From positions 1 to 64,000 of the forward strand of contig NZ_BJNF01000020.1 in assembly GCF_006539545.1 (NCBI RefSeq): 64,000 nucleotides of DNA. The letters are read 5' to 3'. The translations under genes were made by a program, and so were the position numbers. This DNA comes from Nitrobacter winogradskyi. GTDB lineage: Bacteria; Pseudomonadota; Alphaproteobacteria; Rhizobiales; Xanthobacteraceae. The notes under the pieces are model-generated. The model was not told the origin of the DNA and made no database searches. It was given only the letters and a program-made list of their open reading frames with translations. This document shows positions 40,860 to 48,757 of this stretch, piece by piece (within the stretch, counting starts at the first letter, position 1; every line of letters starts with the position of its first letter).

Positions 40860-41756
40860 GTGGCCGACTCATTCGCCGCACAGACAATAGAGAGCATCCG
40901 CCGCGCGCTGACGGCGCGCTTTGAAGCCGCCGGAATCGACAGCGCCGCGCTCGAAGCCCGCATACTCACCGGCACGGTGCTGGGCCTCGATTTGACCGGT
41001 CTGATCGCGCAAGGCTTGCAACAACTCGGCGAGGATGACGCGGCGCGCCTTGATGCCTTGGCGCAACGCCGGCTTGCGGGCGAGCCCCTGGCGCGCATTC
41101 TTGGAACGAAGGAGTTCTGGGGACTGCCACTGAAGTTGTCGGCGGATACGCTGGTGCCGCGGGCCGACACCGAAACCGTGGTCGAGGCCGCGCTCGGCGT
41201 CCTCCGCGCTGAAGGCAGGATGCAGGAGCCGCTTCGCATCGCGGATCTCGGCACCGGCAGCGGCGCGATCCTGCTGGCGTTGCTGACCGAATTGTCGGCG
41301 GCCGCCGGCGTCGGCACGGACCTCAGCGCAGCGGCGCTAGACACGGCCAGAGCCAATGCGCGAAGCGCCGGCCTCGCGGCGCGCGCGCAATTCCTGGTCA
41401 GCGATTATGCGGATGGTCTGTCAGGCCCATTCGACCTGATCGTCTCGAACCCGCCCTACATCCGCTCAGCCGACATCCCGATGCTGGCGCCGGAGGTGCG
41501 CGATCACGATCCGCATCTTGCACTGGACGGCGGCCTCGACGGGCTCGACGCCTATCACCGGATCGCGCCGCAGGCGGCGGCGCTGCTTGCGGACGGCGGC
41601 CTCCTGGTGCTGGAGATCGGGCAAGGCCAGGGCGGCGCCGTCAGCCGGCTGGTGACCGCCGCGGGATTAACGGTCATGGGATCTGTGAGGGCTGACCTCG
41701 CGGGTATCGGCCGCGCCGTCGTGGCCGGCAAGACTGCCCTTGGAAAGCCGGATTGA
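40860..41756 (+). CDS. prmC: Release factor glutamine methyltransferase PrmC
   Basis: Methylates the glutamine of the GGQ motif in release factors. 298 aa, GTG start preceded by AAGGAAAGGA. SAM motif I is IADLGTGSGAILLALL; the catalytic NPPY is in LIVSNPPYIRSADI. The N-terminal helical substrate domain (about 1-75) is present. It lies directly after prfA, as in many bacteria. Confidence 0.96.
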   Translation: MADSFAAQTIESIRRALTARFEAAGIDSAALEARILTGTVLGLDLTGLIAQGLQQLGEDDAARLDALAQRRLAGEPLARILGTKEFWGLPLKLSADTLVPRADTETVVEAALGVLRAEGRMQEPLRIADLGTGSGAILLALLTELSAAAGVGTDLSAAALDTARANARSAGLAARAQFLVSDYADGLSGPFDLIVSNPPYIRSADIPMLAPEVRDHDPHLALDGGLDGLDAYHRIAPQAAALLADGGLLVLEIGQGQGGAVSRLVTAAGLTVMGSVRADLAGIGRAVVAGKTALGKPD

Positions 41757-41781
41757 GCCCCAAAAAAACCACTTGGAATAT

Positions 41782-41930
41782 CCCTCGGGAGCGATTACGT
41801 TTTATGCACAACCATCGGTCCCGGGTTTGGCCCCGCAGCCTTGCTGCAGGTGAGTCGGGTTCTCGGACGAGAACCGACCCGGGTGAACGGTCCCTTGAAG
41901 GCAGGTCATATCGAGCGCGATGGCCGAGAG
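41782..41930 (+). ncRNA. Candidate structured RNA downstream of prmC
   Basis: A non-coding stretch with nested complementary arms: CTCGG (41784-41788) with CCGAG (41924-41928), CCATCG (41812-41817) with CGATGG (41918-41923), CCCGGGT (41820-41826) with ACCCGGG (41877-41883), and two inner hairpins GCAGC/GCTGC (41835-41847) and GGTTCTC/GAGAACC (41858-41875). Such nesting over 150 bases is unlikely by chance. The strand is a guess from arm order. It might be a trans-acting small RNA or a 6S-like RNA; I could not identify the family. No protein-like frame is present. Confidence 0.4.
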
Positions 41931-42115
41931 CTGCGCCGCTTGCGACCGCGAAGCGAACGAAAGCCTGATACTGCGCTTGAGGACTCACGCAAGAAAACCT
42001 GAGTTTGATGTCTCTAGCTGAATGATCTGGCCGGGCTGGCGCCATGCGCCCGCCGGCGACCCCGGGAACGCGTCTTTAACTATGGAAATGAATGGCGCCG
42101 ATGCGCGCTTGGCCG
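41931..42115. other. Remainder of prmC-DUF4167 spacer
   Basis: This stretch lies between the candidate RNA and an R1 element. I saw nothing further in it. Confidence 0.3.
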
Positions 42116-42250
42116 GGAGCGTTGTCGAGCGAAGTACGCCCTCGGGCTTATCCCAGGGATGGATACCAGTTCGCGTGAAGAAAGCGCGTCAGATCAAGGT
42201 CCGAGAGTAAGAGTGTCGCTTCTGAATTCTGTTCAAAAGCGGAAGCTCTG
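42116..42250 (+). repeat. R1 composite repeat, long form
   Basis: GAGCGTTGTCGAGCGAAGTA, inner stem CCTCGGG/CCCAGGG, ACCAGTTCGCGTGAAG, AAAGCGCGTC, then a decayed hairpin module TCGCTTCTGAATTC..CAAAAGCGG closed by GCTCTGG. It is joined directly to an R2 element, the same order as near secA but in the opposite orientation. Confidence 0.85.
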
Positions 42251-42349
42251 GAGCATGATCGCGGAAAGTGAAAACGGGTTTTCGGAAAAAATCATGCTCA
42301 AACAGAAAGATAAGCGACGAGTCTGATTTAACGCGGTTGAATCAAACTC
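42251..42349 (+). repeat. R2 palindromic repeat
   Basis: GAGCATGATCGCGGAAAG, then ACGGGTTTTCGGAAAAAATC and ATGCTC give nested inverted repeats; AAACAGAAAGATAAGCGACG follows, then a hairpin GAGTCTGATTTAAC/GTTGAATCAAACTC. It is about 75 bp upstream of the DUF4167 start. Confidence 0.85.
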
Positions 42350-42423
42350 GAGGGGTGTCGTGGGCGGAAATTTTCGCCAGAACGACAAGCGAGAACTTCA
42401 AGGCTGATAACCGAAGGCGGGAC

Positions 42424-43128
42424 ATGAGAAACGGTCAGAACAACAACAAGCGGATGCGCAACCGGAATAATAATAACAATAACAATAACAACCGGCGCGG
42501 CCAGAACCCGATGACGCGGGTGTTCGAATCCAATGGTCCCGACATCAAGATCCGCGGCACGGCCTCTCACGTCGCCGAAAAATACCTCCAGCTCGCCCGC
42601 GATGCTCGCTCATCCGGCGATCCCGTGGCCGCCGAAAACTACTATCAGCACGCGGAGCATTATTTTCGGCTGATCGCCGCGGCGCAGGAACAGTTCCGCC
42701 AGAGCCAGCCGCAACAACAGCCGCGGATCGACGTCGAAGCCACGGATGAGGCGGGTGAGGACGACAGCGAGAACTTCTCGAATTTTGGAGCGGAGCCGGG
42801 ATTCGTCCCGGTTCAGCAACCGCGCGACCACCATCAACGCGAGGCGCAACCCTACCAGCGCGATCAGCAGCAGCCCCGGGAATACCGTCAGCCGCAGCCG
42901 GCGTTACAGCCCGCCGACAATGGCGGCGTCGACCGCCTCCCGTCCTTCATCACGGGATCGCAGCCGCAGTTGAACGGCGGCGGCAGGTCGGAAAGCAACG
43001 GCCATCAGGGCGGCGAGCGCAGCGACCGCTTCCCGCCACGCCGCCGCCGCCGCCCGCATGGCCCGCGTCCTGAAAGCATGGCGCAGCCGCCGGCTCCGAG
43101 CGAGGACTTCAATCCCGGCAACGAGTAG
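42424..43128 (+). CDS. DUF4167 domain-containing protein
   Basis: A 234-aa protein with a polar N-terminus (MRNGQNNNKRMRNRN, then a run of nine Asn), the conserved DUF4167 core at about 28-85 (ESNGPDIKIRGTASHVAEKY, DARSSGDPVAAENYYQHAEH, YFRLIAAAQEQ) and a long Gln/Pro/Arg-rich tail. Likely RNA- or nucleoid-associated by composition; function unknown. The poly-Asn tract is coded by AAT/AAC repeats prone to slippage. The upstream frame to 42268 runs through R2 and is rejected. Confidence 0.9.
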   Translation: MRNGQNNNKRMRNRNNNNNNNNNRRGQNPMTRVFESNGPDIKIRGTASHVAEKYLQLARDARSSGDPVAAENYYQHAEHYFRLIAAAQEQFRQSQPQQQPRIDVEATDEAGEDDSENFSNFGAEPGFVPVQQPRDHHQREAQPYQRDQQQPREYRQPQPALQPADNGGVDRLPSFITGSQPQLNGGGRSESNGHQGGERSDRFPPRRRRRPHGPRPESMAQPPAPSEDFNPGNE

Positions 43129-48539: not shown

Positions 48540-48659
48540 TGAGCGATCCGCAATTTTCTCTCTCGAAGCCGGCTTGCGGAACAAGGGGAGCGAGCCTTCG
48601 GGCCGCGCGCGTCCGGCGCTGGCAAGATCTCCGAAAAGCACGGCTCGCCCGACAAGAGG

Positions 48660-48757
48660 TAGGAGACTGACGAGCGACCCGATCCGGACCTCGTTAGGGC
48701 TGCTTCCTTCCGGACCTGACCCGGTTGGCGAGTGGCTCGTCCACCGCCAATCTCCCG
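48660..48757 (-). ncRNA. ffs: Signal recognition particle RNA, small bacterial type
   Basis: On the minus strand the highly conserved SRP domain IV reads GGGUCAGGUCCGGAAGGAAG then CAGCCC, the Ffh-binding asymmetric loop and GGAA tetraloop. Outer arms GGGAGAUUGGCG.. and GACGAGC (5' side) pair with GCUCGUCAGUCUCC (3' side). The length of about 98 nt is the 4.5S size. It lies upstream of dnaX, its common place in alphaproteobacteria. Ends are set by the base of the helix and may be off by a few bases. Confidence 0.94.

Follow-up and report, generated by a model that had tools for sequence, protein, structure and literature searches.

Locus and extent of the conserved RNA

The DNA analysed, a window of 64,000 nucleotides from Nitrobacter winogradskyi, carries prmC and, downstream on the same strand, a gene for a DUF4167 protein (Table 1). 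No coding signal was found between the prmC stop (41756) and the DUF4167 ATG (42424), which bears out the absence of coding signal claimed in the original prediction, where a candidate small RNA with nested stems had been placed in this spacer at 41782–41930. That box did not hold as a unit: it starts inside a promoter-like block, with 41782–41806 belonging to the promoter region, and it ends in the middle of the RNA, conservation extending to ∼42077. The predicted leader, counted to the DUF4167 ATG, is ∼620 nt long in the window, compared with the ∼400 nt usual elsewhere.

Between the RNA and the DUF4167 gene lie two kinds of repeat (∼42117–42208 and 42243–42355), for which the same genome holds at least 46 further copies or partial copies by sequence match. 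The second kind scores 23.8 bits against the Rfam family BASRCI27 (RF02600; cut-off 59.8), which suggests that this family overlaps a widespread repeat.

Table 1. Features of the prmC–DUF4167 locus, in window coordinates.
Feature	Position	Strand	Evidence or description
prmC (peptide chain release factor glutamine methyltransferase), upstream neighbour	40860..41756	+	Pfam PrmC_N, 6.5e-17
-35-like element CTTGGA	41772..41777	+	Fixed-distance block in 81/86 homologues
-10-like element TTACGT	41795..41800	+	CTACGT in 65/81 homologues
Conserved RNA, predicted 5' part of leader	41807..42077 (∼270 nt)	+	Conservation; 5' end predicted from the -10 position
5' domain, three-way junction	41820..41883	+	Outer arm 41820-41826/41877-41883
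Hairpin H1	41835-41839/41843-41847	+	Within the three-way junction of the 5' domain
Hairpin H2	41858-41864/41869-41875	+	Within the three-way junction of the 5' domain
Core hairpin H3	41900..41950	+	41901-41902/41948-41949, 41904-41907/41944-41947; inner stems 41912-41919/41934-41942, 41922-41924/41930-41932
Hairpin H4 (AAGCG/CGCTT)	41951..41978	+	Surrounds the most invariant stretch, GAACGAAAGCC (41955-41965); conserved columns in alignments A1 and A4
Conserved 3' block GGGAACGCGTCTTT	42064..42077	+	Alignment A1
Dispersed repeats between RNA and DUF4167	42117..42355	+	Shared by the window with G008, its closest relative; gap in 28 other aligned relatives
Shine-Dalgarno-like GAAGGCG ahead of DUF4167	42413..42419	+	AAGG kept at the same place in aligned relatives
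DUF4167 gene	42424..43128	+	PF13763, 5.1e-34; basic Asn/Arg-rich N-terminus, 78-position domain, Arg patch near C-terminus

Conservation and distribution

Identity to eight same-genus genomes was 88.0% for the RNA, 81.9% for the prmC piece, 91.3% for the DUF4167 piece and 67.4% for the spacer at 42078–42420. In the same comparison, substitutions in the RNA were spread evenly over the codon phases (87/93/76) and 39 indels were not multiples of three, compared to phase counts of 197/178/428 with five frame-breaking indels in the prmC piece, and 17/10/200 with none in the DUF4167 piece. This even spread, the frame-breaking indels and the level of identity indicate that the RNA is non-coding and under purifying selection.

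DNA searches gave matches in all nine same-genus genomes, counting the one from which the window comes, and the best match spanned ∼41763 to 42077 in six of the eight relatives. When the query was shortened, matches were obtained in 51 of 149 family genomes; four weak matches of this search (G011, G058, G075 and G136), in which the DUF4167 motif was absent from the 2.1 kb examined, are probably due to chance. A covariance model of the RNA core (R1; 28 sequences, E-values rough) matched 69 of 198 family genomes, representing 12 of the 47 genera sampled, and across the order it matched, under strict filters, 10 of 297 genomes, every one from the same family. Among the 80 of 82 stretches listed from an exact-pattern scan, the named carriers included Bradyrhizobium, Afipia, Tardiphaga, Rhodopseudomonas and Nitrobacter, which are of importance to nitrogen fixation and nitrification. 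DUF4167 itself was present in all 48 family genomes and in 58 of the 61 order genomes sampled. Two alignments drew on 32 loci each: A1 holds 31 of them (L054, at a contig edge, was dropped) and A2 holds 28 (L041, L044, L053 and L054 were dropped).

Promoter-like block

A block consisting of a CTTGGA-type 10-mer (at most one mismatch), a 17-base spacer and [CT]TA[CG][CG]T follows prmC in 81 of 86 homologues, a count covering 86 of the 97 model matches (L071, L087, L097, L098, L100, L102, L121, L124, L133, L136 and L213 were left out). Of the five misses, L125 begins at a contig end and L180 has its block further upstream, leaving L109, L110 and L181 as misses. The alphaproteobacterial housekeeping promoter has the form CTTGAC-N17-CTATAT, which the block resembles, and from the position of the -10-like element the RNA would start near 41807. 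The 64 kb window holds a single CTTGGA-N17-YTANNT site, compared to 0.04 expected, although this figure understates chance since the pattern was derived from that very site.

An EcfG-type promoter, as used for stress control in the manner of GsrN, has the consensus GGAAC-N16/17-CGTT. At the present locus the corresponding box reads GGAAT or GGATT at a spacing of 18, and CGTT becomes CCTT, GGTT or GCTT in relatives while YTANNT is kept. Given this loss of CGTT, an EcfG-type promoter was rejected.

Fold and pairing

For the 5' domain a three-way junction of -35.8 kcal/mol is predicted, a stability that none of 200 shuffles reached (z -3.66), in a sub-window picked after its arms had been seen; when all homologues were folded, the ends were set slightly wider and the domain of the window gave z -2.99. 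Over 48 homologues the mean z was -1.30, with 44 values negative and 13 below -2. A closed multi-branch fold was obtained in 25 homologues, not always an identical one. The complementary arms and hairpins described in the original prediction were thus recovered in part: the outer arm, H1 and H2 are present, while the box as a whole is no more stable on the + strand than dinucleotide shuffles (z -0.82; 46 of 200 as good). On the - strand it gave z -1.71, with 10 of 200 dinucleotide shuffles as good. Nor did stability exceed that of shuffles for the full predicted RNA (z -0.30; 84 of 200 as good) or the H3 piece alone in the window (z -0.25), and the core domain in 48 homologues had a mean z of -0.25, negative in 31 and never below -2. 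Thermodynamics alone is insufficient, and the finding rests on conservation.

Covariation across relatives had been named in the original prediction as a check, and the pairing is indeed kept. In a structure-blind alignment of 48 relatives (A4), the helices H2, H3 and H4 have standard pairs in 88.6% of their cells, compared to 31–47% when the partners are slid by one to three columns; A4 comprises 48 of 53 non-redundant sequences (L125, truncated, and L179, L180, L181 and L184 were left out), and its pairing percentages are favoured because three of the latter four are the weakest matches. Two-sided changes were found in 22 cells versus 8.5 in shuffles, and the covariation score was 0.150 versus 0.114 (0 of 500 shuffles as high in either case), with the caveat that kinship alone can beat these shuffles without structure. 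The number of pairs with a two-sided change was less striking (9 versus 5.8; 23 of 500 as high), and a slide of -1 also yields 23 two-sided cells, but with 31% paired.

Taken helix by helix in these 48 sequences, H2 has 74% of its cells paired and shows two-sided changes in three of its six pairs, H3 has 88.5–98.6% of cells paired per helix with two-sided changes in 6 of 17 pairs, and H4 has 93% of cells paired and no two-sided change. H4 is uncertain because a second AAGC (41961–41964) pairs equally well with the same 3' arm, 93% of cells being paired either way. In an earlier consensus fold covariation contributed just -1.55 kcal/mol, with two-sided changes in 8 of 32 pairs. Overall, H2 and H3 have fair to good support as paired helices; the evidence is suggestive for H1 and the outer arm and weak for H4.

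Two further pairings were discarded. A closing stem between GACTACGTTCC in the promoter region and GGAACGCGTC on the 3' side was rejected because, as judged by eye on the alignments, substitutions in its 5' arm (CCTT, GGTT) have no compensating change opposite; a GGTTCC/GAAC pairing in the core, suggested by RNAalifold, is broken by a C-A mismatch in the window. As a separate observation, the two AAGC segments in AAGCGAACGAAAGCC, each able to pair with one GCTT arm, could possibly form a two-state switch.

A leader of the DUF4167 mRNA or a free small RNA

The gene order around the core is constant. DUF4167 lies downstream on the same strand in all 93 testable core matches (four more, of 97 in total, are at contig edges), the constant same-strand downstream gene expected of an mRNA leader, and prmC lies upstream on the same strand in all 88 testable matches (nine more at contig edges); one genome enters this tally twice, as L185 and L213 denote a single genomic position. 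The distance from the core to the DUF4167 ATG ranges from 203 to 546 nt.

Intrinsic terminator-like sites between core and ATG were at chance level, occurring in 6 of 93 loci versus 5.4 expected from dinucleotide shuffles. Loci of other families had none (0 of 25; 1.7 expected), and family loci without the core had one (1 of 18; 1.2 expected), both expectations coming from two-base-block shuffles. In the 250 nt past the DUF4167 stop such sites were found in 34 of 71 loci versus 4.9 expected, and from this it follows that the scan works in these genomes, for intrinsic terminators only, Rho-dependent ends and processing sites being invisible to it. Promoter-like sites occurred in the core–DUF4167 spacer of 34 of 93 loci (35.6 expected from two-base-block shuffles, which are cruder than dinucleotide shuffles); with the threshold unchanged, 86 of 93 loci had such sites upstream of the RNA. 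A stricter threshold gave 11 loci in the spacer versus 10.7 expected; the known promoter was found at that threshold in 5 of 93, and the spacer scan is a weak test since it misses this promoter in most loci.

Based on these data, the conserved stretch is most plausibly the 5' part of a long, structured, cis-acting leader of the DUF4167 mRNA, a reading to which we assign a probability of about 0.6. The original prediction had also offered a lineage-specific small RNA. The lineage restriction stands, as the core was found in one family only, whereas the gene order and the missing terminator favour an mRNA leader over a free-standing sRNA.

The alternative that survives best, although we consider it unlikely, is a trans-acting sRNA of ∼270 nt with its own promoter and a 3' end near 42080 made by Rho or by processing, the synteny with DUF4167 being positional or the sRNA being cut from the leader. 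Such an sRNA would fit the drop in conservation past 42077 (from 88% to 67%), the variable spacing to DUF4167, with repeats intervening in two genomes, and the conserved promoter-like block of its own. It fits poorly with an RNA that was never found without DUF4167 downstream in the 93 testable matches, with intrinsic terminators that do not exceed chance and, as a weak test, with a second promoter that does not exceed chance either.

Some elements of the leader reach beyond the carriers of the core. Both genes were located in 43 of 47 order and family loci, and in these 43 the untranslated gap between prmC and DUF4167 was at least 251 nt (median 431); on this basis a long DUF4167 leader looks ancient. 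A promoter-like block similar to that described above stands behind prmC in 8 of the 18 family loci that lack the core, compared to 0.03 expected, and in other families of the order in 9 of 25 loci, compared to 0.13 expected; an H1-type hairpin was found in 10 of the same 18 family loci (2.1 expected) and, outside the family, in 2 of 25 loci versus 2.4 expected, which is not above chance. The expectations for these cross-family and hairpin scans come from two-base-block shuffles, and the patterns were devised after such sites had been seen, so the expectations understate chance. In the nine loci of other families with the block (L230, L231, L233, L242, L245, L247, L248, L251 and L255), CTTGGA replaces the CTTGAC of the housekeeping promoter. 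The interior of the leader changes fast outside one clade, and the core is an elaboration peculiar to that clade.

The DUF4167 protein and the proposed mechanism

The first 32 residues of the DUF4167 protein include 15 Asn and 8 Lys or Arg, with no Asp or Glu, and a patch of Arg lies near the C-terminus. The domain is predicted to form a beta hairpin and two helices (pLDDT of ∼90 or more over residues 41–80; mean 60 overall). Sequence searches returned no solved relative, and a fold search gave no significant match, the best PDB match, sulerythrin (E 0.2), being uninformative. Going by its basic composition the protein probably binds RNA, and autogenous control, which builds on that, is inferred. 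DUF4167 is rarely named in the open-licence PMC literature, and the leader RNA offers a concrete handle on this barely studied protein.

In the mechanism that we propose, transcription would start at the promoter directly behind prmC, pass the RNA without a terminator, continue by read-through into DUF4167 and end past that gene. The leader would fold, with the three-way junction at its 5' end and the highly conserved core behind it, and would control DUF4167 expression in cis, with the DUF4167 protein as the likeliest trigger of an autogenous feedback. At the level of sequence, the proposal draws on conservation, the non-coding nature of the stretch, the promoter-like block, the gene order, the lack of terminators above chance and the pairing within H2 and H3. 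The promoter-like block that many of the loci carry behind prmC, together with a long, structured leader that is highly conserved in one clade, suggests control of DUF4167 expression at the RNA level. That the protein itself is the ligand of the leader is put forward tentatively, and we regard this part as possible but somewhat doubtful.

The 5' UTR of the RNase E gene (rne) and the leaders of ribosomal-protein mRNAs are autogenous leaders of RNA-binding proteins. Like them, the proposed DUF4167 leader is long, structured and encoded on the same strand directly 5' of the gene of a probable RNA-binding protein, with no intervening terminator above chance; it differs in that no Rfam relationship was found and its interior changes fast outside one clade. 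In a bolder version, which we consider improbable, a stable RNA would be set free from the leader and form a ribonucleoprotein with the DUF4167 protein, the two working together and the protein being an alphaproteobacterial RNA chaperone or condensate protein and the leader of its gene being its RNA partner. If so, the protein and its RNA partner would be made from a single transcript.

Other readings of the locus

There is a small probability that the leader senses something besides the protein, as a metabolite riboswitch or a temperature sensor would. The compact core with its invariant bases GAACGAAAGCC and the sharing of one GCTT arm by two AAGC segments, which is switch-like, are what such a sensor might show; at E≤5, however, the locus matches no Rfam riboswitch or thermosensor family, and we know of no metabolic link of DUF4167.

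It is very improbable that the stretch gives rise to no functional RNA and is conserved as a DNA element or left over from a coding sequence. Such a reading could account for the finding that the box and the full stretch are not more stable than shuffles, but it is at odds with the two-sided changes and the fixed spacing of the promoter-like block and, for coding sequence, with the lack of codon periodicity and the excess of frame-breaking indels over the flanking genes. A conserved uORF at 41920 was rejected, its possible start being ATG in only 29 of 48 relatives.

The probability of a 6S-like or other housekeeping RNA is negligible: the original prediction had noted a loose GGTGAG...CTCGG resemblance to 6S RNA, but no RF00013 match was found at E≤5 within 41300–42500, and both 6S and tmRNA genes lie elsewhere in the genome. 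The single 6S match (C54:19459–19618) scores 87.3 bits, above cut-off, and the alphaproteobacterial tmRNA (RF01849; C60:6472–6830) scores 301 bits, with none at the prmC–DUF4167 locus. What the RNA shares with 6S RNA is that it is structured, GC-rich and non-coding.

Comparison with known RNA families

A search of the Rfam 15 families gave no match to the RNA at E≤5, and the family is absent from Rfam 15. Matches nearby were the 23.8-bit BASRCI27-like one in the downstream repeat and a CrcZ fragment within the DUF4167 gene. When the loci of 40 relatives were searched against Rfam at E≤0.5, five matches were obtained in all and, of those placed, none fell in the prmC–DUF4167 spacer.

Several alphaproteobacterial sRNAs deserve comparison. 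The BjrC sRNAs, attributed to Madhugiri et al. (2012), reportedly come from the same lineage. The alpha-r45 RNA (SmrC45) of Sinorhizobium meliloti, which we take to have a prmC context, was considered as a syntenic RNA and rejected: in the portion of the source available, C45 is listed between SMc02983 and SMc02984, and the spacers gave no Rfam match. The open-licence PMC texts, as far as they were accessible, name no RNA between prmC and DUF4167; an earlier detection as an sRNA (Madhugiri 2012, del Val 2012) is possible. The Bradyrhizobium sRNAs BjsR1-10, of the same lineage, are described by genome positions in the accessible part of PMC5082802 and were neither matched to nor excluded from the prmC–DUF4167 locus. 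GsrN, the general-stress sRNA of Caulobacter, has relatives predicted near ecfG-nepR-phyR with an EcfG promoter, according to the part of PMC5869019 available. It is likewise an alphaproteobacterial RNA with a conserved promoter, but the present RNA differs in lying between prmC and DUF4167, not at ecfG-nepR-phyR, and in not keeping the CGTT box.

The window also contains a bacterial small SRP RNA at 48659–48755 on the - strand (54.4 bits, over the Rfam cut-off). In L241, a locus from another family of the order in which prmC was not found, a small SRP RNA gene occupies 918–1015 on the - strand, ∼0.5 kb upstream of DUF4167.
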